Source of the DNA: Candidatus Caccovicinus merdipullorum
GTDB lineage: Bacteria > Bacillota > Clostridia > Lachnospirales > Lachnospiraceae
NCBI GenBank assembly: GCA_018715905.1
Contig: DVKS01000183.1
Coordinates: 1-44,286 of the forward strand
Reading direction: 5' to 3'
Length of the DNA: 44,286 nt
The notes under the pieces are model-generated. The model worked only from the letters and a program-made list of their open reading frames with translations, was not told where the DNA came from and ran no database searches. Within the stretch, counting starts at the first letter, position 1. Each line of letters begins with the position of its first letter. Both the position numbers and the translations under genes were made by a program. Shown here one piece after another: positions 2,152 to 33,431 of the stretch.

Positions 2152-2970
2152 CTAAAAACGCTTATTGGGATCCTGATAAAAGGAACCGCCCTGCCAGTTT
2201 TCTCCCTGGGCCTGCTGGGTATATACTGCCCCGTCCGCATCCGGCGCATGCGCGCCGTTTCTGGCAATTCCCAGGCGGTCCTCCCGAAGCTTAAGATAAA
2301 GTTCTGCCAGAGTCGCCTCGTAATAAGGATTTACAAAGAATCCGCCGATGCAGCAGCACAGCACGCCCAGAAGATACCAGCCGATAAAGGAAAGCTCCAG
2401 CACCCAGGTGGCAAATTTATTTCCATCCATCATCTGCTTGCTGAGACGAAAAATCTCTTTGCTGTCCATGGAAGGGTACTCCGCAACCAGGTACGGAACC
2501 ATATAATACTCATAATGCTTGATAATTCCAGGAATAATAAGCAGCAGAGACCATAAAAACTCATACAGCCCCCGGAGAAACTGCACCTTTACAATATTCA
2601 TGTAACGGCCTTTCTTGAATCCTCCGAACAGCTCTTCGAACCCGGCATTTCTCTGCTCCAGAGTACTCATGGAAAAATACCGGCACTTGCCCACTGCTAC
2701 CACATTTGACACAAATATGGAAAATAGGATGACCACTGCAAAAATGACAAACATAACGCAAAGCAGAATTAATAAGAACTCCATGTCATTGCCTGCAATG
2801 ATGGAATTCGTTTCCGCAGTATTCACTGTAGAGGTTACGCCCGTGGGCACATACCCCTCGCTGGAACCCGCCCCAAGAATGCCTGCTACAAATACCACCA
2901 GAAGTCCATACCAGTAGTAGCGCCGGAGTCCCTCTTTTGCCCGGCTTTTTAATTCAGCCCTTGTCCACAT
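2152..2970 (-). CDS. DUF975 family integral membrane protein
   Basis: A membrane protein of about 272 residues matching the DUF975 family. Visible features are an N-terminal RAELKSRAKEGLR amphipathic segment, then several hydrophobic spans (one near residue 25, a pair around 75-105, and further ones around 155-175 and 200-225). A polar C-terminal tail ends in QDPNKRF. The function of DUF975 is unknown. The ORF track starts two codons earlier; I prefer the ATG at 2970 because the GGAGG site then has normal spacing (it nearly touches the first ATG) and family members start MWTR-like. A palindromic intergenic repeat lies upstream. Confidence 0.85.
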   Translation of the reverse strand: MWTRAELKSRAKEGLRRYYWYGLLVVFVAGILGAGSSEGYVPTGVTSTVNTAETNSIIAGNDMEFLLILLCVMFVIFAVVILFSIFVSNVVAVGKCRYFSMSTLEQRNAGFEELFGGFKKGRYMNIVKVQFLRGLYEFLWSLLLIIPGIIKHYEYYMVPYLVAEYPSMDSKEIFRLSKQMMDGNKFATWVLELSFIGWYLLGVLCCCIGGFFVNPYYEATLAELYLKLREDRLGIARNGAHAPDADGAVYTQQAQGENWQGGSFYQDPNKRF

Positions 2971-3017
2971 TTCCATTCCCTCCTCACTTTTCTTCTGAAT
3001 GAAGGCTTCTGTAAAGA

Positions 3018-3110
3018 TCCTGCCGCCGGACAGGCGGCAGCAATTTACATCACGAAGTATCCAGCAAGACGCGCCAGTGACGCGTCTTGTCGGATTTTTT
3101 CACAGCCGCC
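3018..3110 (-). repeat. Palindromic intergenic element (relative of those at 21.3 and 43.0 kb)
   Basis: The 320-base gap between the divergent DUF975 and CYTH genes holds two strong palindromes. One is CTGCCGCC-GGACA-GGCGGCAG. The other is CAAGACGCG/CGCGTCTTG around a short loop, followed by a T run on the plus strand. The first hairpin resembles those in the leaders at 21329 and 42980, and like them it sits close upstream of the ribosome site of a minus-strand gene. The CGCGTCTTG motif recurs upstream of thrS near 25120. It may be a mobile REP-like element or a leader structure. The remaining bases up to the promoter at 3224 show nothing else. Confidence 0.6.
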
Positions 3111-3223
3111 TTTAGTATAGCATAAACACTCCAGTCAGAAAAGCAAAGTTATCTAAAAACTTCTTACATTTTTCTTTCATTTGCAGCTTTCTTCTCATTC
3201 TCCAGGCGGATTTGTCTTTTTCA

Positions 3224-3251
3224 TTGACATCCGACGCCAGTATGATATGAT
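3224..3251 (+). promoter_or_regulatory. Sigma-A promoter for the CYTH gene
   Basis: A perfect -35 TTGACA (3224-3229) is followed after 16 bases by TATGAT (3246-3251). This lies about 45 bases upstream of the plus-strand CYTH start codon. Confidence 0.8.
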
Positions 3252-3296
3252 ACGGTCATAACTGCAAACAGTACAATCAAAAAGCGAGGAATCCTT

Positions 3297-3785
3297 ATGG
3301 AAATTGAACGCAAATATCTGATTCATGAAATACCAAAAGTCTGTCTTTCCTACCCTTACAGCCAGATTGAACAGGGATATCTCTGTACCGAACCGGTGGT
3401 CCGGGTGCGCAGAGACGGCGATGAATACTATCTGACTTACAAAGGAAAGGGCCTTTTAGCCAGAGAAGAATACAATCTTCCTCTAACCCGGGAAGCATAT
3501 GCGCATCTGATTGCAAAGGCCGACGGCATCATTCTTTCAAAGCGCCGCTACCGCATTCCGTTAACCGATGCTATGAAGGCGGGCTCCCCTGAAACAGTAC
3601 CGGCAGAAGTTTTGCCTCTTACTGTGGAGCTGGATGTATTTGAAGGCCGATACCAGGGGCTGATCCTGGCAGAAGTGGAATTTCCCACCATGGAACAGGC
3701 AGAGTCTTTCACGCCCCCTTCCTGGTTCGGTCCGGACGTGACGCTAAGCGGAGAATACCAGAACAGCCGGTTAAGCCGCGGCTGA
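3297..3785 (+). CDS. CYTH domain protein (triphosphate tunnel metalloenzyme)
   Basis: A 162-residue protein starting MEIERKYL, the ExExK signature of the CYTH/triphosphate tunnel family, in which the glutamates bind metal and the lysine contacts triphosphate. Further charged strands follow (VRVRRDGDEYYLTYKG, YNLPLT, SKRRYRIP, VELDVFEG, LAEVEF), as expected for the eight-stranded tunnel. Members hydrolyse inorganic tripolyphosphate or nucleoside triphosphates, or cyclise ATP. A tripolyphosphatase role is common for short bacterial versions but cannot be proven here. It has its own promoter and a GAGGA site and stands alone among minus-strand genes. Confidence 0.9.
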   Translation: MEIERKYLIHEIPKVCLSYPYSQIEQGYLCTEPVVRVRRDGDEYYLTYKGKGLLAREEYNLPLTREAYAHLIAKADGIILSKRRYRIPLTDAMKAGSPETVPAEVLPLTVELDVFEGRYQGLILAEVEFPTMEQAESFTPPSWFGPDVTLSGEYQNSRLSRG

Positions 3786-3829
3786 TTTAAGAAAACGCGC
3801 TGCCGAATCCACCATGGAATATATTCGGT

Positions 3830-4912
3830 TCAGGCGCCGACATCCCTGCAGGCCTTCAGCAGGGAAAGAAGGACCTGGTTTTCTTCTTCTCCCTTTACGC
3901 ACACTCGGTAATCCCGTCCGTCCAGTCCGTGATAATTTCCGCAGGAACGGATCAGAAGTTCCCTTTTCAGGCATTCTTCATACAGACTCCCTTCCGGAAC
4001 TTCAGGACGGACATCCCGGAAAAACACGTAGTTGGCCGCCGGCGGGATTACCTGAAATCCCAGATCCGAAAGTCCTTCAAAAAGCTGCTTCCGCCCCCGG
4101 CGGATCATGTCCTTTGTTTTTTCCCGGTATTCACTTTCGCCAAGGGCAGCCAGCCCTGCCTCCTGTGCCGTACCAGATACGGACCAGGGCTGGCGCACTT
4201 CTTCCATCTTCTTTAAAAGCGCCTGGTTTGCGGTTACACAGTACCCCAGCCGAAGGCCGGCCATACCGTAAAGTTTGGTAAAGGCCTTAAAAATAACCAT
4301 ATGGGGGAAGCGGTCGGTCTCCTGAAGGAGCGAAAAAGCCTCCGGGTGATCCAGAAAATCCACAAAGCATTCATCCAGGGCAAAGCATATCTTCTGTTTT
4401 TCTAAAAATTCTGCAAGTTCCTCCAGCTCCTGTTTCGGCACGGCTGTACCGGTGGGATTGTTGGGATTGCAGAAAAAAAGAATCTCCGGCTTTTTCCCCT
4501 CTTTTCCCATGGTCCGGATCTTCTCTTCAAGGACCCTTACATCCGGCCGGAAATCACGCTCCCGTTCCAGACAGTATAATTCCTGCCGGCATCCGGCAGC
4601 CTCCAGGGCCTTCTCATACTCCGAAAAAGTGGGAGCCAGAAGAAGGGCTTGCTTCGGCCTCATGGCCAGAGCCAGCTGAAAGATCAGATCCGCCGCACCA
4701 TTTCCGCAGAGGATCCTATCCTCCGGGATTTGATGAAACGCTCCAAGGGCCTTTTTAAGCCGGCGGCACCGGGGATCCGGATACCGGCAGCAGTCCTCGG
4801 CCGAGCGCCGCACAGCCTCCTTTACCCCTTCCGGCGTTCCCAGGGGATTTACATTTGCCGAAAAATCCCAGCGGATCCGCCGGCTGTACACATCTCCTCC
4901 ATGGGCATCCAT
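3830..4912 (-). CDS. cobD: Threonine-phosphate decarboxylase CobD-like (PLP aminotransferase fold)
   Basis: A 360-residue fold-type-I PLP enzyme. The N-terminal HGGDVY and DFSANVNPLG motifs are characteristic of L-threonine-O-3-phosphate decarboxylases, which make (R)-1-amino-2-propanol phosphate for the cobalamin side arm. Visible PLP elements are FCNPNNPTG (about 165-175), a DECFVDF strand and FKAFTKLYGMAGLRLGY with the Schiff-base lysine. Histidinol-phosphate aminotransferase is the close alternative, but the HGG start and the cobalamin neighbours favour CobD. The ATG overlaps the cbiC stop as TGATG, indicating translational coupling. It is the last gene of the cobQ-cbiC-cobD block. Confidence 0.88.
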   Translation of the reverse strand: MDAHGGDVYSRRIRWDFSANVNPLGTPEGVKEAVRRSAEDCCRYPDPRCRRLKKALGAFHQIPEDRILCGNGAADLIFQLALAMRPKQALLLAPTFSEYEKALEAAGCRQELYCLERERDFRPDVRVLEEKIRTMGKEGKKPEILFFCNPNNPTGTAVPKQELEELAEFLEKQKICFALDECFVDFLDHPEAFSLLQETDRFPHMVIFKAFTKLYGMAGLRLGYCVTANQALLKKMEEVRQPWSVSGTAQEAGLAALGESEYREKTKDMIRRGRKQLFEGLSDLGFQVIPPAANYVFFRDVRPEVPEGSLYEECLKRELLIRSCGNYHGLDGRDYRVCVKGEEENQVLLSLLKACRDVGA

Positions 4913-9584: not shown

Positions 9585-10673
9585 TCAGATAATATCCTGC
9601 CTTAATATATGGCGGATCCGCTCTTCATCCATCTCCCGGATAACCTGTACTGCCAGATCCACAGCCGCTTCCAGATCCGCTTTGGCGCAGAAATTATAAT
9701 GAGTATGCACATAGCGGCTGGGAACGCCCAGAACAAGTACGGGAACCGCCTTGTTGGTCAGGCTGATCTTTCCTGCATTGGTGCTTCCCCCTCGCCGCAC
9801 AGTTTCCTGATAGGGGATGCCGTATTTTCCAGCCAGCTCAATGGCGTATTCCATAAATGCCGGATTGGAAATGTAGCTTTTGTCCAGCCTGCGGATCTGC
9901 ACGCCGCCTTTCATCCTGCACTGGGCCTGGGTGGCGCTGAAATAAAAGTCATCGGAGGGAGACCCCTCAAATACAATGGCCATATCCGGCTTTACCACCT
10001 GAGCGGTAACAGCCGCGCCGCGGGTCCCCACCTCTTCCTGGGAAGCAAAAGCGCCCACCACGTTAACCGCCAGATTTTCCCGTTCTCCGTACAGCCGGTT
10101 CATGGTGTCCACGATACAGGCACAGCCTGCGCGGTTGTCAAAAGCTTTCCCCAGACAGATCTCATGCTCCTCATCGTAGGCAAACTGCACATCCGGCATC
10201 ATGGGATCCCCTACGGAAACGCCGAATACTTCTTCTGCCTCCTTCCGGCTGGTGGCTCCGATATCCACGTAAATGGTTTCAATGTCCAGGGACTGGGAGG
10301 CACGCTCCTTTTCATTCATAAAATGGACCGGCTTGGATGTGGTAATGCCGCGGATCTTTTTCCCGCTTCTGGTGCGGATGACCACAGTATGGGCCGGCAC
10401 ATTGGTCAGCACAAAACCGCCCAGCATAATAATTCCCAGACAGCCGTTATCATGAATGGTCTGCACCATGAACCCGCACTCGTCCGTGTGGGCATCCAGC
10501 TGTACCACCGGCTTCTCCTCCTGCTTCCCCGGCATCCGGACATACAGGTTATTCATGGCATCATTTTTCACTTCAAATTTCCCGCAGTAGCCTGCAATCG
10601 TGCGGATGACCTCCTCCTCAAACCCGCTTGGGCCGAAGGCATCGGAAATCCGGCCAAACATTTGCATATCCAT
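9585..10673 (-). CDS. M42 family metallo-aminopeptidase (glutamyl aminopeptidase/deblocking type)
   Basis: A 362-residue M42 peptidase. Metal-binding and catalytic motifs are seen in order: QLDAHTDECGFMV, GKAFDNRAGC, ASQEEVGTRGA, FEGSPSDD and RYVHTHYN. These enzymes form large cytoplasmic tetrahedral particles with two metal ions and remove N-terminal residues from short peptides. It sits directly downstream of the M55 D-aminopeptidase and the dipeptide transporter genes, so it likely digests imported peptides. Residue specificity (Glu/Asp or neutral) cannot be set from sequence alone. Confidence 0.93.
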   Translation of the reverse strand: MDMQMFGRISDAFGPSGFEEEVIRTIAGYCGKFEVKNDAMNNLYVRMPGKQEEKPVVQLDAHTDECGFMVQTIHDNGCLGIIMLGGFVLTNVPAHTVVIRTRSGKKIRGITTSKPVHFMNEKERASQSLDIETIYVDIGATSRKEAEEVFGVSVGDPMMPDVQFAYDEEHEICLGKAFDNRAGCACIVDTMNRLYGERENLAVNVVGAFASQEEVGTRGAAVTAQVVKPDMAIVFEGSPSDDFYFSATQAQCRMKGGVQIRRLDKSYISNPAFMEYAIELAGKYGIPYQETVRRGGSTNAGKISLTNKAVPVLVLGVPSRYVHTHYNFCAKADLEAAVDLAVQVIREMDEERIRHILRQDII

Positions 10674-10700
10674 TATCGTTCCCTCTCATTTGCTCTGTTT

Positions 10701-11501
10701 TTAATATACGACAAAACTGTGGGCCGTCACCACATCCATCCAGTTTTCCGTCTCCAGACGGTCTGTAAAAGTATCCACCGGCTTCATCCCCGGATAAAAG
10801 GACATCTGATAGGCTCTCTTCCAGTCCTTAAATGTTACCTCGTAAACAAAACGCTCCGGCATATTGATCCGGCAGGCGGAAAAATCTTTTCTCAGCGCTT
10901 TCTTTATGCCGCAGCGGATCTGCTGGATCACCGCAGACTTAGGACGGCACACCACGGCAGCTCCTTCTCCCCATTTGGAGGCCGCCGTCTCAATCCCCGG
11001 CACCAGTTCACCGGCCAGACTGCATATCGCCTCATCTCCCGATAAAAACAGCACCGGCACCCCATGACTTGCAGCCGTGTAAGCATTCAGCATAAACTCG
11101 CTCATGTATTTTCCGTTCAGGCGGATATACAGGCTGTTTCCAGTGGATGTATGGCTTACCGGGAACCGGGGATCGCCGGCCGGCGCATGGTACCCGATAA
11201 AGATCACCCCGTCAAAGGAATCGTCAATCCCCCACATCATATTATAGGGATGTCCGCTTTTCCCCCGGATCAGCGTCACATATTCTGGCATCTGGAAGGG
11301 ATCGATATTCGTGGCATCCCCATGACCATCCTTCACCACGATTTCATCGGCCCCCATTTCATGGGCCGCCTCACAGGCCGCCAGAACTTCCTTCGTCATC
11401 TCCTCTGCAAAGGGCCGGTAAATGCTTTCCTGCTTATGGGTTTCCGCCGGAAGCACCAGTCCTGCACAGCCCTCAATATCCGCACTGATAAACAGTTTCA
11501 T
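10701..11501 (-). CDS. dppA: M55 D-aminopeptidase, DppA-like
   Basis: A 266-residue zinc peptidase of family M55. It begins MKLFISADIEGCAG, the SxDxEG metal-binding signature of B. subtilis DppA, and continues with VKDGHGDATNI, FIGYHAPAG and VLFLSGDEAIC, which hold the other ligands and the catalytic region. The founding member forms a decamer and releases D-Ala from D-Ala-containing dipeptides. It follows the ABC transporter genes as in the Bacillus dpp operon, which argues that the imported substrates include D-amino-acid peptides. Here DppA means the peptidase, not the E. coli binding protein of that name. Confidence 0.94.
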   Translation of the reverse strand: MKLFISADIEGCAGLVLPAETHKQESIYRPFAEEMTKEVLAACEAAHEMGADEIVVKDGHGDATNIDPFQMPEYVTLIRGKSGHPYNMMWGIDDSFDGVIFIGYHAPAGDPRFPVSHTSTGNSLYIRLNGKYMSEFMLNAYTAASHGVPVLFLSGDEAICSLAGELVPGIETAASKWGEGAAVVCRPKSAVIQQIRCGIKKALRKDFSACRINMPERFVYEVTFKDWKRAYQMSFYPGMKPVDTFTDRLETENWMDVVTAHSFVVY

Positions 11502-11521: not shown

Positions 11522-12505
11522 TCAGCCGTTGGTCTTGTCATCATACAGATGGCAGTATACGTAATGATTTTCACTTACCTGGTAGCGCTTGGGCACATCC
11601 GTCACGCAGCACTCCATGCAGTTGGGACAGCGGGTGTGGAATTTGCAGCCGGTAGGCGGATTCAGCGCAGACGGGATGCTTCCCTCCAGGATCACCCGGT
11701 CCTTTTTCGCGGTAGGATCCGGAACGGGAACCGCAGAAAGCAGCGCCTTTGTATAAGGATGAAGAGGATTTCCGTACAGGCTCTTCTTGTCGCCTACTTC
11801 CACAAAATTTCCCAGGTACATAACGCCCACCCGGTCACTGATATGCTCCACCACGCTCAGATCGTGGGCCACGAAAATATAAGTCAGATTAAATTCATGT
11901 TTTAACTGATTCAGAAGATTCAGCACCTGGGCCTGAATGGAAACATCCAGGGCCGAAACCGGCTCATCTGCGATGATCAGCTTGGGCTGTACTGCCAGAG
12001 CCCTGGCGATTCCGATTCTCTGACGCTGTCCGCCGGAAAACTCATGTGGATAGCGGTTGGCATGATAATCATCCAGTCCTACCTTTCTGAGAAGATCCAG
12101 CACTTTCGCCTCCGTCTCTTCCTTTGTCTTTGTCAGCTTGTGGATAATCAGAGGCTCGGCAATGATATCGTAAACCGACATTCTGGGATTCAGCGACGCA
12201 TAGGGGTCCTGAAAGATCATCTGCACCTTTTTTCGGACGGCACGCATCTGCTTATCATTATATCCGGAGATATCTTCTCCGTCCAGGATAATCGTCCCTG
12301 CCGTAGGCTTCTCCAGCTTGCAGACAGCACGGCCAAGTGTGGATTTTCCGCATCCGGACTCTCCAACGATGCCGAAAACCTCCCCTTCCCTGATCTCAAA
12401 GGAAACGCCGTCCACAGCCTTGACATACTCCTTGGTGCCGATCCGTTTCCCGGCCACCGGATAGTAAAGCTTCAGATCCTCTATCTTTAACAGAACATTT
12501 TCCAT
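11522..12505 (-). CDS. dppF: Peptide ABC transporter ATP-binding protein (OppF/DppF type)
   Basis: A 327-residue ATPase with Walker A GESGCGKST, signature FSGGQRQRIGIARAL, Walker B LIIADEP and switch histidine in FVAHDLS. The C-terminal oligopeptide-transporter extension has the conserved cysteines (FHTRCPNCMECC) found in DppF/OppF, which can hold an Fe-S cluster. The start at 12505 overlaps the previous gene's stop as TAATG and follows GGAGGCGGAG; the track's upstream extension is discarded. It pairs with the DppD-type ATPase to drive dipeptide import. Confidence 0.95.
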   Translation of the reverse strand: MENVLLKIEDLKLYYPVAGKRIGTKEYVKAVDGVSFEIREGEVFGIVGESGCGKSTLGRAVCKLEKPTAGTIILDGEDISGYNDKQMRAVRKKVQMIFQDPYASLNPRMSVYDIIAEPLIIHKLTKTKEETEAKVLDLLRKVGLDDYHANRYPHEFSGGQRQRIGIARALAVQPKLIIADEPVSALDVSIQAQVLNLLNQLKHEFNLTYIFVAHDLSVVEHISDRVGVMYLGNFVEVGDKKSLYGNPLHPYTKALLSAVPVPDPTAKKDRVILEGSIPSALNPPTGCKFHTRCPNCMECCVTDVPKRYQVSENHYVYCHLYDDKTNG

Positions 12506-13500
12506 TATTTTTCTCCGCCTCCTTTTTCGCAAAGCCAGCATCTGCAGGTATGTCCGCCGCCCAGGTCAAAAAATCCCGGTTCTTCTTCCCGGCACTTTTC
12601 CATGGCCTGACTGCACCGCGGCGCAAACTTGCAGCCTTTAGGCATGTATTTGGGATTAGGCACATTTCCCGGAATCACTTCCAGCTCATCTGTATCCTCT
12701 CCCAGTTTGGGGATGGAGCCTAAGAGGCCTCTTGTGTAGGGGTGGGACGGATTCGCAAAAAGAGAATATACATCTGCCTTTTCCACTACCCGGCCGCAGT
12801 ACATTACCGCCACCTCATCACAGACTTCTGCCACCACACCCAGATCGTGGGTGATAAACAGAATGGAGGTTCCGATCTCCTTTTTCAGATTATTCATCAG
12901 ATCCAGGATCTGGGCCTGTATGGTCACATCCAGAGCTGTCGTAGGTTCATCGGCAATCAAAATCCTGGGACGACACACAAGAGCCATGGCGATCATGACA
13001 CGCTGACGCTGACCGCCGGAAAGCTGGAAGGGATATTCATACATCATCCGCTCCACTCTGGGAACACCGGTCTTTCGGAGCATGTCCTCCGCTTTCTGCC
13101 AGGCTTCTTTTTTGGAAATTTTTTCATGCTGCAGGATACATTCCGTCAGCTGTTTGCCGATCTTCATAACCGGATTCAGGCTGGTCATAGGCTCCTGGAA
13201 GATCATGGAGATCTGTCCGCCCCTGAGACGGCGCTTCTCTTCTTCGCTGATATGGGCAATATCCTTTCCGTCCAGAAAGATCTGGCCTTCCGTCACCTTT
13301 CCGGTGGTCCCTGTAAGAAGTCCCATAATGGAAAGAGAGGTAACGCTCTTTCCGCTTCCCGACTCGCCTACGATGCCCAGGGTAGAGCCTTCTTTCAGGC
13401 TGAAGTCCACACCGTCCACCGATTTTACCACACCGTCATCCATGAAAAAGCTGGTGTGCAAATTTATTACTTCTAAAACATTTTTCCTCATATCTGCCAT
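12505..13500 (-). CDS. dppD: Peptide ABC transporter ATP-binding protein (OppD/DppD type)
   Basis: An ATPase of about 331 residues with Walker [11 protein letters not shown], signature [15 protein letters not shown], Walker [13 protein letters not shown] and FITHDLGV. The C-terminal cysteine motif ([15 protein letters not shown]) is that of DppD/OppD. I prefer the start MADMRKN at 13500 because GGGGGAAG lies at the right distance; the ATG six codons upstream overlaps the dppC stop but has no ribosome site. It is co-translated with its neighbours and forms the heterodimeric motor with DppF. Confidence 0.95.
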
Positions 13501-13517
13501 AGTCGCTTCCCCCTTCA

Positions 13518-14411
13518 TTAATCCGTCAGCTTCGGATCCAGCGCATCCCGCAGTCCATCGCCCAGAATATTAAAGCTTAAAACCGTAAGGAAAATCGCAA
13601 GCCCCGGAAACAGGGTGGCGTGCAGGCTGGTAAGCATGTAATTTCTTCCGTTTGAAAGAAGAAGGCCCCATTCCGGCGTAGGCGGCTGGGCGCCCATACC
13701 AAGGAAGCTTAAGGAAGACGCCGTCAGAATGGAAGAACCTACGGACATGGTAAACTGCACGATAATCTCCGGAACCGCTCCAGGCAGAATATGGCGGAAC
13801 AGAATCCGCGCGTCAGAAGCACCCAGGTTCCTGGCTGCCTGCACGAACACGGAATGTTTCAGTGCCAGAGTCCGGCTTCTTACCAGACGGGCAAACGTAG
13901 GCGTGGAGAATACAGCTACTGCAATAACCACATTTCCGAGTCCGCTTCCCAGAATTGCCACAATGGCAATGGCCAGAATGATTCCCGGGAATGCAAAGAG
14001 CGTATCGCAGATCCGCATGATGACGGAATCCACGAATCCTCCGTAGTAACCGCCCAGAAGTCCTAAAACAGTGCCGCAGATGGCTCCCACCGTAACGGCT
14101 GACAGTCCAACTGCAAGGGAAATCCTCGTTCCGCAGACAATTCTGGAAAACAGATCTCTTCCAAATTCATCGGTTCCGAACCAGTGGGCCATACTGGGCC
14201 CCTGAAGAATCGCCGAATAATCGTATTCATTAATGCCGTAAGGCACAAGATACTCGCCTACCAGAGCGATGATCACCAGAAAAATAATGAAAAACAGGGC
14301 AACGACCGCGTTTTTCTGTCTCTTGAATTTCCGGATCATCTCGGATACGGGAGTTTTGATGTCGGTTCTCTCGTTCATCTCGGCATTGCCGGATGTTTTC
14401 TTTCTTGCCAT
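13518..14411 (-). CDS. dppC: Peptide ABC transporter permease (OppC/DppC type)
   Basis: A permease of about 297 residues. A polar N-terminal tail precedes the first membrane span ([19 protein letters not shown]), the OppC_N domain ([19 protein letters not shown]) and the BPD_transp_1 domain, where the EAA loop [18 protein letters not shown] contacts the ATPases. The start at 14411 gives AGGAGG a nine-base spacing, while the track ATG abuts the site. It forms the channel with DppB. Confidence 0.95.
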
Positions 14412-14424
14412 AGTTCCCATCCTC

Positions 14425-15345
14425 CTAAGATAATTTGATTTCCGGATTTAATGCTGCATACAGAATATCCACAATCAGGTTAATTACAATAAACTGCAGA
14501 GAAAAGATCAGAATCAGCGACTGAATCGCCGGATAATCCCGGTAGTTTACCGACTCGATCAACAGCTGCCCCAGTCCCGGATAAGCAAACACCGCTTCCG
14601 TAACCACAGAACCGCCCAGAAGGAATCCAAACTGCAGTCCCACTACGGTAACAACGGAAATCATGGAGTTGCGGAAGGCATGTGCCCATATTACCGTCTT
14701 TTCTTTCAGTCCCTTGGCGCGGGCCGTGCGGATGTAATCTTCCTTCATTACTTCTACGATAGAAGATCTGGTAAAACGGGCAATAATGGCTGCGATACTG
14801 GTTCCCAGGGTAATGGCCGGAAGCACCAGATTCCGCCAGCTGCCTGCACCTGTGGTGGGGAACCATCTTAACTTAACCGAAAACAGCATGATCAGAAGGA
14901 AGCCGATCCAGAAGTTTGGAAGGGAGATTCCCGATACCGCCAGAGTCATTCCTGTGAAGTCCTGCCATTTTCCCCGGTTTTTTCCGGACCATACACCGAG
15001 GATCACGCCTACAATGGTACTCCAGATCAGGCTGGCAATGGTAAGGGCCATGGTGTTCCAGTATCTGGAAGCCACCTCTGTAAGAACCGGGCGGCTGGTG
15101 CGGAGGGAAGTTCCCAGATCCCCCTGCAGAAGGCCCAATATGTATTTTATGTACTGAATATAGATGGGCTGATTCAGTCCCAGCCGCTCTCTTACCGCCT
15201 CTACATCCTGCAGAGTCGCCTGTTCGCCGGCCACAAGACGGGCCGGATCTCCGGGAATCAGGCGAACGAAAAAGAACACAAACGTCACAACGATAATGAG
15301 CGTCGGTATCATTCCCAGAACACGTTTTATGGTATATCTTAACAT
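14425..15345 (-). CDS. dppB: Peptide ABC transporter permease (OppB/DppB type)
   Basis: A 306-residue permease. It begins [25 protein letters not shown] with the first membrane span, followed by the periplasm-facing N-domain ([16 protein letters not shown]) and five further spans. The EAA motif is [19 protein letters not shown]. This is the standard DppB/OppB layout. It is the second gene of the operon, separated from the binding-protein gene by a long hairpin, consistent with the binding protein being made in excess. Confidence 0.95.
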
Positions 15346-15461: not shown

Positions 15462-17135
15462 TTAATTTGTCATCTTCGCATTCTTCATGTTGATTGCGCC
15501 GTCCGGGTAGAGCTTTACATTCTGAATGTTGTTAGCTGTAGCCCAGGTATTGGAATCAACACACAGATTGATAAGCGGGCACTCATCCCAGATCAGATCC
15601 TGTGCCTTTGCATAAGCCTCGCTGCGGATTGCGTCATCTGCGCTTGATAAGCCATCCTGAATGTAGCCTTCCAGCTCTTCATTCTCAAAGTAGCTGATGT
15701 TGTAGCTCATAGGCGGCTCGGACTCGATGGCAAGCAGCGGGCGGATACCCCAGTCTGCATCGCCGGTGGAGGGAGACCAGCCGATGATATAAAACTCGAC
15801 TTCTGCCTCAGATCCGGGAACATCCACATCCTGGATCCTCTCATTTAAGATGGCGCTCTCCATGCCGTTTAACTCCAGGTTAATGCCTACCTCAGCCAGC
15901 TGCTGCTTAAGGAATTCCGCCTGCTTCTGGTTTGCGCTGGTATTGGCATACATTGCAGTCGTTGTAAATCCATCGGGATATCCGGCCTCTGCCAGAAGTT
16001 CTTTTGCCTTTTCTACATTGTACTCTCTTATCTCGTTTGCCTTATGATACTGTACAGCCGGTGCGATCAGAGAATCCGCCTTGGTGGCCAGTCCGTTCTT
16101 TACTACCTGGATGTAGGCATCCTTATCGATGGCGTAATCGATGGCCTGACGCACGCGCTTATCCGTATAGGGTTCCTTCTGGGTATTCAGCATAACAAAC
16201 CGCACTACAAGGCCCTCATCGGTGTAGGAAGTTACGTTGGGATCTGCCTCCAGCACAGCTACGCTCTCGGTAGGAGTGGGCCAGATAATCTGCGCATCGC
16301 CGGACTGCAGCATGGCTACGCGGGTTGCGCTTTCTGTAACAGGACGGAAGGTAATGGTGCGGAATCCTGCATCCGAATCTGCCAGAGCCGTTCCGCCGCA
16401 GATATCGGCATCATAACCCCACCATTCGGTATTTAATTCCAGAGTCAGATGATCGCCCTCGATCCACTCTACGAACTTATACTGGCCGGTTCCCACCGGA
16501 GAGGAAGCACATGCCTCAACGCCGGCTTCAATCTGCTTCGGGCTCATTACCACACAGGCCGGATGAGCCAGGTTGCTGATAAATGCTCCGAAGGGCTCCG
16601 TCAGGTTTATCTTTATAGTGTAATCGTCTACCTTCTCGTAAGTATCCAGTATGTTGCACAGGAAGGTGGTTCTCTTCAGACCAAGAGTCTCATCATCCCA
16701 TTTTGCGAAGTTGGCCAGAGCCGCATCGGCATTCCACGGGGTTCCGTCGGTGAAGCTGATACCTTCCCGAAGAGTAATGGTAAACTCCGTAGCGTCTTCA
16801 TTTGCCTCGTACCCGGTAGCAAGCATCGGATAGATGTTCATCTCATCATCGAAGCCGAACAATCCGTCCATGATCATACGCTGAATACCGCCGGATAACG
16901 TGTCGCTGGTATCCATAGGATCCATGGTGGTAAAATCCACGTTCACTGCGGCTACCACATCCTGCTGCTGGGAAATGGATGCACCTTCTGCAATCTCCGC
17001 CGGCGTCTCTCCGGAAACCGCCGCGCTGTCTGCTGCCGAAGTATCACCAGCAGTGTCCGAACCGGAACATGCAGTCAGTGTGGTCATCGCCGCTGCCATT
17101 AACAAAGCCAAAAGCCTGTACCCTTTTTTCTTCAT
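15462..17135 (-). CDS. Peptide ABC transporter substrate-binding lipoprotein (SBP family 5)
   Basis: A 557-residue extracytoplasmic binding protein. The start MKKKGYRLLALLMAAAMTTLTACSG is a lipoprotein signal peptide with lipobox LTAC, so the mature protein is anchored at Cys23 to the outer face of the membrane. A short Ser/Thr/Ala-rich linker follows, then the SBP_bac_5 fold (PMDTSDTLSGGIQRMIMDGLFGFD, YTIKINLTEPFGAF, DKRVRQAIDYAIDKD). It captures di- or oligopeptides for DppBCDF. It is the first gene of the operon and divergent from the regulator. Nickel or glutathione binding, also seen in this family, is not excluded by sequence but fits the peptidase context less well. Confidence 0.94.
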   Translation of the reverse strand: MKKKGYRLLALLMAAAMTTLTACSGSDTAGDTSAADSAAVSGETPAEIAEGASISQQQDVVAAVNVDFTTMDPMDTSDTLSGGIQRMIMDGLFGFDDEMNIYPMLATGYEANEDATEFTITLREGISFTDGTPWNADAALANFAKWDDETLGLKRTTFLCNILDTYEKVDDYTIKINLTEPFGAFISNLAHPACVVMSPKQIEAGVEACASSPVGTGQYKFVEWIEGDHLTLELNTEWWGYDADICGGTALADSDAGFRTITFRPVTESATRVAMLQSGDAQIIWPTPTESVAVLEADPNVTSYTDEGLVVRFVMLNTQKEPYTDKRVRQAIDYAIDKDAYIQVVKNGLATKADSLIAPAVQYHKANEIREYNVEKAKELLAEAGYPDGFTTTAMYANTSANQKQAEFLKQQLAEVGINLELNGMESAILNERIQDVDVPGSEAEVEFYIIGWSPSTGDADWGIRPLLAIESEPPMSYNISYFENEELEGYIQDGLSSADDAIRSEAYAKAQDLIWDECPLINLCVDSNTWATANNIQNVKLYPDGAINMKNAKMTN

Positions 17136-17214: not shown

Positions 17215-17244
17215 ATTTTAGCCCAGCTCTTTTGCTTTGTCAAA
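17215..17244 (-). promoter_or_regulatory. Promoter of the peptide-transport operon
   Basis: TTGACA (17239-17244) and TAAAAT (17215-17220) are 18 bases apart on the minus strand, a normal sigma-A promoter. No GG-N10-GC sigma54 element was seen in the divergent intergenic region. Confidence 0.8.
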
Positions 17245-17302
17245 TTAAAGCGCTATCTTAGCACAGCAAAAATTATTTTTTTAAGAATATAAAGTAATCT
17301 GG

Positions 17303-17332
17303 TTGATTATATTCATTCTTTTTTGATATAAT
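17303..17332 (+). promoter_or_regulatory. Promoter of the divergent regulator gene
   Basis: TTGATT and TATAAT separated by 18 bases on the plus strand lie about 30 bases before the regulator ATG, which has an AGAGGAGG site. Confidence 0.7.
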
Positions 17333-17363
17333 CTTCCTAATAAATAAAAGAGGAGGCCAAACC

Positions 17364-19331
17364 ATGCCGGATTCCCCAAATAAATACAAAGTCTTAATTG
17401 TCTGCATCAATCCCTATATCCGCGTTGAATTTCTTGACTACCTGACCTCGTTTCTAGGCAGCTATATCACATTTGACGCTGCATCTCCTTCTGAATTAAA
17501 GGAACCCAGGCAGCTGGAAGGTTACGGCTGCATCCTTTTTTCCAGCCGGATGGTCCAGACCGCATTTCCCCTTCCAGTTCCCGAAACCATCACACAGCTG
17601 GTCTGCTCCCGGACCTTCAATCATGCCTATCTGGACCAGCTGATCCGGATTCCACCCATGGAGAAAGTTTATGTGGTCAATGATACTCTGGACTCTGCGA
17701 TTGATATTATTGAAGAATTCCGGGAATCGGGACTTTCACAGTATCAGTATATTCCATGGGGTCCGGACTCTTCCAATGCGGACCTTTCCGTCCGCTACGC
17801 CATCACCATCGGAGAGCCACAGCTGGTTCCCAGCCATATCAGCAATGTGATCAATATCGGGAACCGGATCATCGATATCGCCACCATCAACGAACTGTGC
17901 ATGACTTTTCATCTTCCCACCCGGTTAAGCAACCAGATCACCAAAAACTACATCTCCCATATCCTGAAAGTGGTAAAGACCGCCGGAAACAGCTACAGCA
18001 GCTATGTCTTTTCCCAGCAGCTTTTAGACGCCGTAGCTTCCAACCTGCCCTTAAGCATCTGCCTGACGGATGCTTCCGGCCGGATTCTTCTGGCCAATGA
18101 TTCCTTTTCCGCCGACTGGTTTTTCTCTGACACACAGGCGGTGGGCCGGTCCTTTGCATCTTTCCTTCCGGAAGAATCGGCAGCTATCTCATTCCAGGAA
18201 ACTGCAGATTATCGGATTTACAATCAGAAAGGGAACCCCTTCTTTTTAAGCGTAATGGAACTGTTCTTTCCAAACCATGACCCGGTCTGCCTGCTTACCA
18301 GCCGGCCGGCTCCTCCTATGGAAGAAAAGGAATGCGAAAACATAGAAGACAGTACGGCGCTTATTGAGCGGCAGAGAAGCACTTTCCAGAATATCATCAC
18401 TGCTTCAAAACAGTGGAACAGTGTCCTCTCCTATGCCAGACGCCTTGCCCTTTACGATTTCCCCATACTGATCCACGGAGAAAACGGAACCCAGAAAAAG
18501 ATGCTTGCCAACGCCATCCACAAAAGTTCCCGCCGCAGAAACAATGCCATCATTAGTTTAAACCAGATGCTTTCCCTCTCCGGAAACAGTCCCCAGCAGA
18601 TCCTGGAGACCGCAAACCACGGAACCCTCCTGGTGGACAATATCGAATATCTCTCCCTGACACTGCAGGATTTTCTGATCCAGGTGTTCCAAAGCAGCGC
18701 CGACACCTCCATCTTCCTGCCAAGGCATTACGATATCCGGGTGATCGCCACAACTTCGGCGGACCTGTATGAACGGATGGAGCAGGGGCTTTTCCGGCAG
18801 GAACTTTTCTATCTGCTGGGCGGAACCTCCATAGAAACCATCCCCCTGCGGAACCGGCGCGAGGACATTCCGCTGCTTCTGGATCATTTCTTTCAGAATC
18901 TATTCCTCAATCCGGACTTTCAGGCTGCAAACATCCTCTCCGACAGTCTGTATGAATTTATGATGACCTATGATTACCCGGGAAATGTGCAGGAGCTGCA
19001 GAATCTGGCCCAGCATCTGTTTTCCCAGTATGCGGCCCATCCGCTGATCATGGCCCAGCTTCCTTCCTATATCCGAAACCGGATCCCGGCAGCCAAAACC
19101 CGGGAGAGTTCGCTGAAAAAACAGGTGCTGACGATCATCCAGACATCTCCCAAAAGCGGAAGAGCTGCCATACAAAAAGCCCTCGCAGCCTCCGGCACGG
19201 AAATCAGCGACGGAAAGCTGCGGGGGCTCTTAAAGGAACTTGCCGCAGAAAATTTAATTTTTATTCACCGCACAAAAGGCGGCTGTGAAATTACCGAAAC
19301 CGGTGCAGCCCTTCTCTCAGCCGGAAAGTGA
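17364..19331 (+). CDS. PAS/degenerate AAA+ transcriptional regulator of the peptide operon
   Basis: A 655-residue protein shaped like a sigma54 enhancer-binding activator but degenerate. Residues 1 to about 200 are a receiver- or PrpR-N-like sensor region. A PAS-like domain follows (about 220-310; LPLSICLTDASGRILLANDSF). The AAA+ part (about 345-580) has a damaged Walker A, GENGTQKK at 372-379 with K in place of the terminal S/T/E. There is no GAFTGA loop where ISLNQMLSLSG stands, and Walker B reads LLVDNIEY (D425-N426, not DE). It retains LRNRREDIPLL and DYPGNVQEL. The C-terminus (about 585-655) looks like a winged helix rather than a Fis-type HTH. It is divergent from the operon and probably controls it through sigma-A promoters. 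It overlaps the convergent P1 peptidase gene by 15 bases. Confidence 0.85.
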   Translation: MPDSPNKYKVLIVCINPYIRVEFLDYLTSFLGSYITFDAASPSELKEPRQLEGYGCILFSSRMVQTAFPLPVPETITQLVCSRTFNHAYLDQLIRIPPMEKVYVVNDTLDSAIDIIEEFRESGLSQYQYIPWGPDSSNADLSVRYAITIGEPQLVPSHISNVINIGNRIIDIATINELCMTFHLPTRLSNQITKNYISHILKVVKTAGNSYSSYVFSQQLLDAVASNLPLSICLTDASGRILLANDSFSADWFFSDTQAVGRSFASFLPEESAAISFQETADYRIYNQKGNPFFLSVMELFFPNHDPVCLLTSRPAPPMEEKECENIEDSTALIERQRSTFQNIITASKQWNSVLSYARRLALYDFPILIHGENGTQKKMLANAIHKSSRRRNNAIISLNQMLSLSGNSPQQILETANHGTLLVDNIEYLSLTLQDFLIQVFQSSADTSIFLPRHYDIRVIATTSADLYERMEQGLFRQELFYLLGGTSIETIPLRNRREDIPLLLDHFFQNLFLNPDFQAANILSDSLYEFMMTYDYPGNVQELQNLAQHLFSQYAAHPLIMAQLPSYIRNRIPAAKTRESSLKKQVLTIIQTSPKSGRAAIQKALAASGTEISDGKLRGLLKELAAENLIFIHRTKGGCEITETGAALLSAGK

Positions 19332-20405
19332 CCCTTCCTGCCTTTCAAGAAGCTCCGGCAGAAATTCCGACAGACTGTAATACATCTCTCCGCCGATTCC
19401 CCGGGTGCTTTCGGCGCAGACCATGGAATTTAAAATCGCTTCATGGGCCGCCTCTGCCGCTGCCTGAAAAGCGGCATTGATGGAGTCTTCCGGGATCATG
19501 GAAAAGGACAGAAGCTTTCCATGGCCGGATGCCGGGATCCGGTTTGCCGTGGTAAATCCGATCATCACTTCCCCGCTTCCGTGGCCTGTATAGGCCCCGG
19601 TGCGGGCGATGCCCACTGCCGTCCTGCGGATGATCCGCTTCAGCTGGCGGCTGGTGACAGGAAGATCCGTGGCAAGAATGGTCATAATGGAGCCCTTGTC
19701 CTCTTCGGCAGTCTCCATCTTCTCTTTCCCCTCTTTCATCTTAAGGATCCTGGGGCCTGCCGCCCTCCCATCCAGAACAAAATCTGCCGTAGCGCCGAAA
19801 TTCGACTGTACCAGAACGCCTATGGTATATTCCTTTCCGTCCAGCGCAATGATCCTGGATGCAGAGCCGATCCCGCCTTTCAGACCGTAGCAGATGGTGC
19901 CTGCGCCGGCTCCCACATCTCCTTCATCAAAATCCTCCCCAGCCAACTCAATGGCCGCAAATACATGCTCCTTTTTTACCGCCCGGTTCTGGATATGGTT
20001 AATGCGGCTGTCATTGCACTCTCCCACCACAGGATTAATGCTTAATGCCGGAATGCCGTCTTTTTCACATTCTTTCAGAACGTACTCTGCCAGGCTGTCC
20101 CAGACGATGCCCACATTCAGGGTATTGGTCAGCGCCACCGGCGTTTCCAGTGTTCCCAGTTCTTCTATCTGGATCAGCCCGGTGCTTTTCCCGAAACCAT
20201 TATGGACGTAGGCCGCTGCCGTATACTTGTTTAAAAAACAGTTGCCGCTGCCCGGAAGGATAACGGTCACCCCGGTATGGCTGTCTTTCTCTTTGATGGT
20301 ACAGTGCCCTACCTTTACACCCGGCACATCGGTGATCTTGTTCCGTTTTCCGGTTTTTATGCGCCCGGTATCAATACCGTAATCACGAATCCTCTTTTTC
20401 TCCAT
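19317..20405 (-). CDS. P1 family (DmpA-type) aminopeptidase
   Basis: A protein of about 362 residues of peptidase family S58/P1, whose members self-process and then act as aminopeptidases on L-, D- or beta-amino-acid amides and peptides. Family hallmarks are ITDVPGVKVGH near the N-terminus, YVHNGFGKSTGL, PVALTNTLNVG, GGIGSASRI, and the catalytic region TGHGSGEVMIGFTTAN. The ATG at 20405 follows AGGAGG and is preferred over the longer track start. It is downstream of the D-amino-acid transaminase on the same strand and convergent with the regulator. Given the neighbours, D-aminopeptidase or beta-peptidase activity is plausible but unproven. Confidence 0.9.
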   Translation of the reverse strand: MEKKRIRDYGIDTGRIKTGKRNKITDVPGVKVGHCTIKEKDSHTGVTVILPGSGNCFLNKYTAAAYVHNGFGKSTGLIQIEELGTLETPVALTNTLNVGIVWDSLAEYVLKECEKDGIPALSINPVVGECNDSRINHIQNRAVKKEHVFAAIELAGEDFDEGDVGAGAGTICYGLKGGIGSASRIIALDGKEYTIGVLVQSNFGATADFVLDGRAAGPRILKMKEGKEKMETAEEDKGSIMTILATDLPVTSRQLKRIIRRTAVGIARTGAYTGHGSGEVMIGFTTANRIPASGHGKLLSFSMIPEDSINAAFQAAAEAAHEAILNSMVCAESTRGIGGEMYYSLSEFLPELLERQEGSLSG

Positions 20406-20461
20406 GATCGTCTGCTCCCTCCTGCCGGTCATCCCATGGCCGGCCCTGGTCTTTTTCCGAA

Positions 20462-21304
20462 TTATCTGCCGATCTCAGCCAGATAGCAGTCCCGGAGCTT
20501 CTTTACCAGTTCCGGATTCTTCATGCCCACCGGCTTTCCGTCCAGCATCTTAACCCGCATGCTGGGATGACTGGTGCTGGAAATGATGATCTCATCTGCC
20601 TGGGCCATCTCATCCGGCGTAAATGCGCGTTCTTCCACAGGGATCCCCAGCTGGCCGCAGAAGCGGATCATATGTTTCCGCTCCGTACCCGGCAGAACCT
20701 TGTTATCCAGCGGATGGGTAATAAATACACCGTCTTTAATCAATGAAACATTGGAATGAGCTCCCTCGGTCACAAATCCGTCACGGACAAATACCGCCTC
20801 ATCGCAGCCGGCTTCCTTCGCCTGCTGTGCCGCCATAACATTGGGGATCAGATTCACGGTCTTGATATTGCAGTGCAGGAAACGGGTATCGTTAACGGTC
20901 ATGACCCGGTATTCGTCAGACATCTGCACGCCGCTCCAGGGCTTGCTGTATATGTAAAGATTGCTGGGAACGCCGTCGCCCGGGAAGAGATGATTTCTCG
21001 GTGCGGTTCCTCTGGTAATCTGCCAGTACAGAAACTGACAGCTGCTTTCCATCTTTAATACCAGTTCGGAAAGAAGCTTCCCGATCTCTTCTTTCGGCAT
21101 GGGAAGGGCGATCCGCAGCTGCCGGGCACTGCTTTCCATCCTGTCCAGATGGTCCGAAAGGGCATAGATCTTGTAATCAAAAACCATGGCCACCTCATAG
21201 ATGCCGTCGCCAAAATAATACCCTCTGTCATTGGCCGGGATCATCATATCGTTGATGGCCGTAATCCTTCCGTTATAATAAGCCAGATCTTTCATCTTTT
21301 CCAT
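20462..21304 (-). CDS. dat: D-amino-acid transaminase (PLP class IV)
   Basis: A 280-residue fold-type-IV aminotransferase. It begins with LAYYNGRITAINDMMIPANDRGYYFGDGIYE, and the PLP lysine is in LHCNIKTVNLIPNVMAAQQA, which closely matches D-amino-acid transaminases (CDIK-S-LNLL region). FVTEGAHSNV supplies the phosphate-binding turn. It interconverts D-Ala or D-Glu and their keto acids, either feeding wall synthesis or degrading D-amino acids. Branched-chain transaminase is less likely because a separate ilvE is at 29.4 kb. Its position next to M55 and P1 peptidases favours use of imported D-residues. The palindromic repeat lies just upstream of its ribosome site. Confidence 0.9.
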   Translation of the reverse strand: MEKMKDLAYYNGRITAINDMMIPANDRGYYFGDGIYEVAMVFDYKIYALSDHLDRMESSARQLRIALPMPKEEIGKLLSELVLKMESSCQFLYWQITRGTAPRNHLFPGDGVPSNLYIYSKPWSGVQMSDEYRVMTVNDTRFLHCNIKTVNLIPNVMAAQQAKEAGCDEAVFVRDGFVTEGAHSNVSLIKDGVFITHPLDNKVLPGTERKHMIRFCGQLGIPVEERAFTPDEMAQADEIIISSTSHPSMRVKMLDGKPVGMKNPELVKKLRDCYLAEIGR

Positions 21305-32105: not shown

Positions 32106-33431
32106 CTATCTCATATTCTCCGGATAATCAATATCTTTCAACTCTTCTTCCCCGGCTGGAAATTCCATCACACGGCCGGGGAATTCTTTCATGATCCGGC
32201 TGCCGCCCCGGTCACCGGTCAGAGCCAGAAGCTTTTCCCGGTAAGTCCGGTAAAACAATACCGGATTTCCCCGGCGCCCGCCCCAGCTTAAGCATCCCAT
32301 ATCCTTTTTCCCCGGGATCAGATTTTCCTGATAATTTTTAAGAAAGTTCTTCATGGTCCTGACAGAAAGCCGGGGCTGGTCCGCCACGGAAAACAGATAT
32401 CCGTCAGCTTCCTCCCCTGCTGCCAGAACTCCCAGATGAATGGATGCGGTAATTCCCTCTGCAGCCCGGTCATTTTTCACCGTCCAGAACCCCGGCAGAT
32501 CCCACCGGACAGACTGCCCTTCCTCCAGATTCCTGCCTTCTCTTAAAATTTCCGGATACTGGCTTACCACAATGATTTCCAGATGGATTTCTTCTGCTTC
32601 CAGCTCCCTCTTTAACTCCAGGAACATATCCAGACCATGGCGGTACAGCGGCTTTCCCTCGTACAGTTTCAAAAGCTTGTTTTCACCGAAACGATTTCCA
32701 AAACCGGAAGCCATATAAATCAATGCAATCCGCGCCGGCCGCAGGCGGCAGAGACGGCATTCCCAGCCTTTTTCCTGAAGGATTCCGCATATCTTCTCTC
32801 CTGCATGCTTTCTGTATGTCGTGTCCGCCTGATTTAAAAACAGCATGAGGGGAGCTGAGGGCAAGCGGAACCGAATGGGCCTTAAATACCCTCTCTCCAA
32901 AAAATCCGCAGCCATTTCCGGCGTAACCGGCACCTGGCCGTCCTCTTCCGCTGGTGCCCCGTCTGCCCTCAAAAGACCCAGCTGCCACCGGTGGCAGACG
33001 GTTTCCAGAGGCTGTCCTACGGCAGAAAGGCCGAACATAACAAAAACCGCATCGGTATTGGCGGGCACCACTGGCTCACGGGGCCATTCCGGGAACTTCA
33101 TAGGCAGGTTCCGCGAACCGTCAGCCTCCACCAAAACCAGGTCAGCCATCCTGCAGATCTGTTCGTAAGCATCCTGACCGGGATAGGTCAGCTTTCCCCG
33201 GGCCTTTCCCTCGCCCAGACTTCCAAATACCGTGATTCCTTCCTCATCCAGCATCCGCTCCGCCTCACAGACCTCTTTTCCCGCCGTGCTGTGCTCCCTG
33301 GGCAGCCACATATGGGTGGTGGTCATCACCGCAGTCTTTTTCCCCGCCTTCCAGGCGGCAGCAGCCAGACGTTCAATCATGGAAGTCTTCCCGCCGGAAC
33401 CGATCACCGCAATTACGTAAGATTTATTCAT
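32106..33431 (-). CDS. YqeC-MocA fusion, molybdenum hydroxylase maturation
   Basis: A 441-residue fusion. The N-terminal half is YqeC-like: P-loop IGSGGKTSMIERLA, TTTHMWLP, and VEADGSRNLPMKFP, a family tied to selenium-dependent molybdenum hydroxylases. The C-terminal half (from about 230) is a MobA/MocA-type nucleotidyltransferase: LIYMASGFGNRFGENKLLKLYEGKPLYRH and FSVADQPRLS. MocA adds CMP to molybdopterin to give the cytosine dinucleotide cofactor of xanthine-dehydrogenase-type enzymes. Its start overlaps the preceding gene by four bases (ATGA). The hydroxylase itself is not in the window. Confidence 0.9.
   Translation of the reverse strand: MNKSYVIAVIGSGGKTSMIERLAAAAWKAGKKTAVMTTTHMWLPREHSTAGKEVCEAERMLDEEGITVFGSLGEGKARGKLTYPGQDAYEQICRMADLVLVEADGSRNLPMKFPEWPREPVVPANTDAVFVMFGLSAVGQPLETVCHRWQLGLLRADGAPAEEDGQVPVTPEMAADFLERGYLRPIRFRLPSAPLMLFLNQADTTYRKHAGEKICGILQEKGWECRLCRLRPARIALIYMASGFGNRFGENKLLKLYEGKPLYRHGLDMFLELKRELEAEEIHLEIIVVSQYPEILREGRNLEEGQSVRWDLPGFWTVKNDRAAEGITASIHLGVLAAGEEADGYLFSVADQPRLSVRTMKNFLKNYQENLIPGKKDMGCLSWGGRRGNPVLFYRTYREKLLALTGDRGGSRIMKEFPGRVMEFPAGEEELKDIDYPENMR

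Follow-up and report, generated by a model that had tools for sequence, protein, structure and literature searches.

A Clostridia enhancer-binding-protein homologue lacking the GAFTGA loop as a probable sigma54-independent regulator of a divergent peptide-transport operon

The regulator gene REG lies on the + strand at positions 17,364-19,331 of the window, that is, of the whole 44,286-nucleotide stretch of Candidatus Caccovicinus merdipullorum DNA analyzed here, and encodes an enhancer-binding protein (bEBP) homologue of 655 amino acids. Our best reading of the sequence is that REG would be a local regulator, independent of sigma54 and unable to hydrolyze ATP. We consider it likely that the bEBP derivatives making up the REG clade have ceased to function with sigma54, and that REG controls the divergent operon through the sigmaA RNA polymerase.

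The domain arrangement is that of an enhancer-binding protein, and Pfam matched Sigma54_activat (5.4e-23) and AAA_lid_14 (2.9e-16), with weaker matches to PAS and to the HTH_12 winged helix. From the N-terminus, the protein contains a two-lobed alpha/beta domain with a long helix (residues 1-226; 17,364-18,041), which had no Pfam match; a PAS domain (residues about 218-315; 18,015-18,308), weak in the window copy and matched by Pfam in 18/21 family members; an AAA+ domain (residues 340-495; 18,381-18,848); the AAA+ lid (residues 496-580; 18,849-19,103); and a HTH_12-like winged helix (residues 583-651; 19,110-19,316). The GAFTGA loop of the AAA+ domain is deleted. Walker A (residues 372-379; 18,477-18,500) reads GENGTQKK where GESGTGKE is canonical, with altered Gly and Glu and the Lys present, and Walker B (18,627-18,650) reads LLVDNIEY, with DN where DE is expected. 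The layout, the missing loop, both Walker readings and the C-terminal winged helix had all been claimed by the first-pass annotation, and each of them held. In addition, sensor I is IATTS versus AATN in intact relatives, and the arginine-finger stretch has LL where the arginine of YRL is expected. From the absent Walker B Glu only, REG is predicted to act without ATP hydrolysis; the Walker A Lys is retained, and thus ATP binding may still matter. The structure prediction that the same annotation had suggested was in agreement: the AlphaFold model (mean pLDDT 79) matched the AAA+ domains of PspF, FleQ and ZraR in Foldseek, with a target TM of about 0.75-0.79.

The identity of the N-terminal domain was addressed separately. 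PrpR_N was suspected from the alpha/beta pattern and from two PrpR_N-looking bEBP homologues on another contig of the same genome (C53). However, the Pfam matches listed for 21 members (E 0.1) and for REG itself (E 10) did not include PrpR_N (PF06506), and Foldseek gave weak Rossmann or periplasmic-binding-like matches only; hence, this candidate was rejected. The TyrR equivalog has a cut-off of 576 bits and scored only 106, which leaves REG outside the TyrR family proper, and the top NCBIfam score was that of DhaR, though far under its cut-off.

A profile search with the N-domain across the class Clostridia found relatives in 30/391 genomes, and the tree of these proteins split into two clades with an SH-aLRT of 100. 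The intact sister clade (28 rows, L097-L124) shares with REG the domain order, the N-domain type, the PAS domain and the winged helix, and several of its genes have peptidases or a peptide transporter in their vicinity (M3, S9, M20, SBP5). These proteins differ from REG in having GAFTGA or GSFTGA and, in nearly all cases, a GESGTGKE-like Walker A and DE. Since the intact relatives carry a winged helix of the same type, we rejected the idea that it was a late replacement. In the REG clade (17 rows, window included), neither an intact GAFTGA nor the Walker B Glu was found in any row. In two intermediates (L018 and L096) the loop is complete, as GAFPGS and GAFPGA, and Walker B is DG; in the remaining members, the loop reads SSFTDE or is absent. 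Thr-to-Pro is also the change reported to be preferred among defective GAFTGA proteins (PMC3162934). Walker A ranges from intact to lost: some distant members have a full GETGTGKE or GESGTGKE, and in others (GQSGTMRL, GEPGLYQP) the Lys is missing, which implies that part of the clade does without ATP binding. Read from these extant states and not from a formal reconstruction, the proposed order of loss would begin with the Walker B Glu and the Thr-to-Pro change in GAFTGA, followed by deletion of the loop and then by erosion of Walker A.

The operon divergent from REG (- strand) starts with a family-5 solute-binding protein of the peptide type (15,462-17,135), followed by a dipeptide/oligopeptide ABC transporter with two permeases and two ATPases (11,522-15,345) and by an M55 peptidase (D-aminopeptidase, DppA-like) and an M42 peptidase (9,585-11,501). 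On the other side, and convergent with REG, lie a peptidase S58 (19,317-20,432, - strand), syntenic in most relatives, and a D-amino-acid transaminase (20,462-21,304, - strand), found there in some. The first-pass annotation had placed REG in D-peptide uptake; this is a guess drawn from the neighbors only, namely the M55 D-aminopeptidase, S58 and the transaminase. It had also suggested a search for relatives beside dpp operons; here, the same transport and peptidase operon was divergent from REG in 13/13 near loci (L004-L016) and in L028, comprising a solute-binding protein, a pair each of permeases and ATPases, M55 and, in most loci, an M42 peptidase. In distant members, the divergent partners were other peptide-type ABC operons and, in L125, an M42 peptidase. 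No regulator already named for this divergent operon turned up in a literature search. In two loci, additional genes have come to lie between REG and the promoter of the operon (L006:7152-9001 and L011:8426-9001), and in another a partial second REG-like gene lies immediately upstream of the full copy (L034:7497-8477). Elsewhere in the window, at 32,106-33,431, a YqeC domain is fused to a MobA-like nucleotidyltransferase domain.

Both promoters of the intergenic region look to be of the sigmaA type, as had been claimed. The operon promoter (17,215-17,243, - strand) has TTGACA (17,238-17,243), a 17-bp spacer and TAAAAT (17,215-17,220), with 11/12 consensus bases, and the REG promoter (17,303-17,332, + strand) has TTGATT (17,303-17,308), an 18-bp spacer and TATAAT (17,327-17,332). 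Around the latter we propose a new operator of roughly 41 bp, with inverted half-sites CTGGTTGA...TCCTAA (17,299-17,340) and the family consensus TTAGGTTGA...TATAAT...CCTAA. The composite element TTAGGTTGATTT-N-TATAAT-N3-CCTAA upstream of REG was conserved even when the divergent operon was a different one. The operator occurred once per genome in 13/14 genomes, and the reversed pattern gave 0 matches in the same search. A stricter pattern gave 5 matches across 397 family genomes, all adjoining REG genes; three were at known REG genes, and each of the two new ones immediately preceded a REG gene that diverges from an SBP5 gene. The TTAGGTTG...CCTAA operator was not found in the intact sister clade; within the REG clade, it was diverged or unrecognized in L023, L025 and L026, and none was recognized in L020. 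In L006, a degenerate operator was left beside the operon promoter, away from REG.

The distance between the operator and the operon promoter was also conserved. The -35 box lies 57 bp from the operator GG in the window, and across 11 loci this gap was 57-58 bp, with an SD of 0.5 compared with 34 and 92 for the distances to the two start codons; in other lineages, gaps of 47, 48, 56, 57, 58 and 59 bp were found. The occurrence of gaps of both 57-58 and 47-48 bp suggests helical phasing. The best promoter fell within the allowed gap set in 11/11 tested loci versus about 4-8% per locus in shuffles, a comparison to be read locus by locus, as the set was picked after the data were seen and the spacing counts of closely related loci are not independent. 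The divergent promoter was weak or ambiguous in L033, L035, L125 and L132, and in the first two it was no stronger than chance; a fixed gap in the intermediate L125 was dropped as ambiguous. A conserved box, CACTTTACTTTGACAAAG, surrounds the operon -35 in near orthologues, and the operon promoter showed no second TTAGG half-site.

The eroded motifs raise the question of whether REG is a decaying gene without function, and the copy closest to it (L004, 83% identity) has a frame break at L004:9774-9892, either a pseudogene or an assembly error. Against this, relatives sharing 57-62% identity have full-length copies with invariant residues, and dN/dS was 0.058-0.146 for whole-gene pairs, 0.035-0.157 for the AAA+ domain alone and about 0.1 in every domain. 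This purifying selection, together with the conserved synteny and operator, led us to reject decay, which we regard as extremely improbable; REG looks like a conversion that worked rather than a dying gene. The first-pass annotation had raised repurposing, a view strengthened by these data and by the retention of REG in genomes without a convincing rpoN. It had also held that homologues with intact motifs would mark this copy as simply decayed: such homologues do exist, but they form a clade of their own, and conservation is also seen within the clade that lacks GAFTGA. A second alternative is that REG still depends on sigma54, contacting it in a non-canonical way or acting at a remote -24/-12 promoter. 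Here, rpoN was strongly matched in 13/21 REG-bearing genomes, including several relatives with an intact gene; however, it was not convincingly detected in the other 8 (G118 and G284, both 99% complete, G063, G333, G336, G338, G343 and G344), and the REG copies of two of these (L005 and L008) are under purifying selection. The organism's own draft genome (89% complete) has a single rpoN match, a 395-amino-acid open frame ending ahead of the RpoN box (L040:821-2008, contig C28), reflecting real decay or an assembly error. A -24/-12 scan of 540 bp upstream, in which a site counted as significant if no more than 1% of mononucleotide shuffles scored as high, found such a site in 7/28 intact relatives and in no member of the REG clade, window included. 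Dependence on sigma54 is thus very improbable, and the loss of sigma54 contact claimed earlier is supported, as are the altered hydrolysis residues and the sigmaA promoters on both sides.

Other observations touched on sigma54 in these genomes. A frameshifted RpoN box was considered for the organism's own rpoN and set aside, as the downstream frames showed only faint resemblance. Some genomes of a genus have rpoN while others of the same genus gave no rpoN match, suggesting recent repeated loss. The organism's genome encodes three bEBP-like proteins, REG included, and GAFTGA was found in 0/3. The other two form a tandem pair (L039:229-2187 and 2230-4254, contig C53) with a PrpR_N-looking N-terminus and a Fis-type C-terminus, and are possibly a second sigma54-independent lineage.

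In the mechanism that we propose, REG would bind the operator through its winged helices. As the operator encloses the REG promoter from its -35 box to +1, autorepression by occlusion is suggested. Bound REG would be centered at about -110 of the operon start, a classical enhancer position, from where it may touch the sigmaA RNA polymerase directly or organize the DNA, and so control the operon, most likely by activation. The state of REG would be set by a metabolite that peptide uptake supplies and that the N-domain or PAS would sense, and the AAA+ domain would serve as an oligomerization or allosteric scaffold instead of a motor. Activation is favored by the bEBP descent and the enhancer-like position; the near-consensus operon promoter, on the other hand, suits repression at least as well. 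REG could then be a dual repressor that occludes its own promoter and shuts that of the operon by looping or spreading, with a peptide-derived ligand relieving both. The 17-bp spacer and the box conserved at the operon -35 are in line with this, looping also fits the helical phasing, and TyrR is frequently a repressor; but the missing second half-site, the activator ancestry of bEBPs and the retained enhancer distance speak against it, and we see it as a real, if minority, possibility. It is rather unlikely that REG is an oligomer switch that still needs ATP binding, in which nucleotide and ligand would drive assembly without hydrolysis, as in TyrR and R. capsulatus NtrC. Such a switch, equally compatible with activation and repression, would explain the Walker A Lys kept in the window and near orthologues, the full Walker A of some distant members and the selection on the AAA+ domain, but not the changed Gly and Glu or the members that have lost the Lys. 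The fullest version of our proposal is that the whole clade crossed from sigma54 to sigmaA in visible steps and carries a new operator of wide spacing, held in fixed helical phase at a distance like that of an enhancer, so that a dead AAA+ assembly may serve as a scaffold in regulating the housekeeping polymerase; we hold it tentatively and give it close to an even chance.

Several sigma54-independent bEBP derivatives are known, namely TyrR, DhaR, HupR, VpsR and some NtrC proteins (PMC3162934, PMC10274813, PMC4374768), and REG would be a further variant among them, from Clostridia and set apart by its sensor, its winged helix and its operator. TyrR of Enterobacteriaceae is likewise GAFTGA-defective and acts at sigma70 promoters, including a divergent pair; it differs in its box (TGTAAA-N6-TTTACA), its regulon of several genes and its ATP-driven hexamer, whereas REG has a winged helix, a single operator per genome and degenerate Walker motifs. 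The GAFTGA loop has also been lost or deleted in VpsR, HupR and the NtrC proteins of R. capsulatus and Caulobacter, whose promoters are sigma70-dependent. These four are of the response-regulator type, with other N-domains, and DhaR differs from REG in its sensor domain and C-terminus and in its targets, the dihydroxyacetone genes. DhaR of E. coli resembles REG in being GAFTGA-defective and works with sigma70 (PMC3162934), and VpsR was reported to have no need for ATP (PMC10274813). Among Clostridiales bEBPs, the XcyR and YpdR groups are listed for peptide-degradation genes and, in contrast to what we propose for REG, are reported as sigma54-dependent, the likeness to REG being by description only (PMC6615313). 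That catalogue searched sigma54-bearing genomes and checked GAFTGA (PMC6615313); therefore, the REG clade would fall outside it, and our literature text searches found no paper on this clade.

Bacterial regulators of this descent without GAFTGA have so far been known singly and mostly from Proteobacteria. In Clostridia, the REG clade can be compared with intact sisters and with intermediates, and the promoters change sigma factor in parallel; therefore, the order of loss and the remaining role of a dead AAA+ domain become directly testable. For the genes of this clade, the automatic label "sigma54-interacting regulator" is wrong, also in genomes without sigma54.
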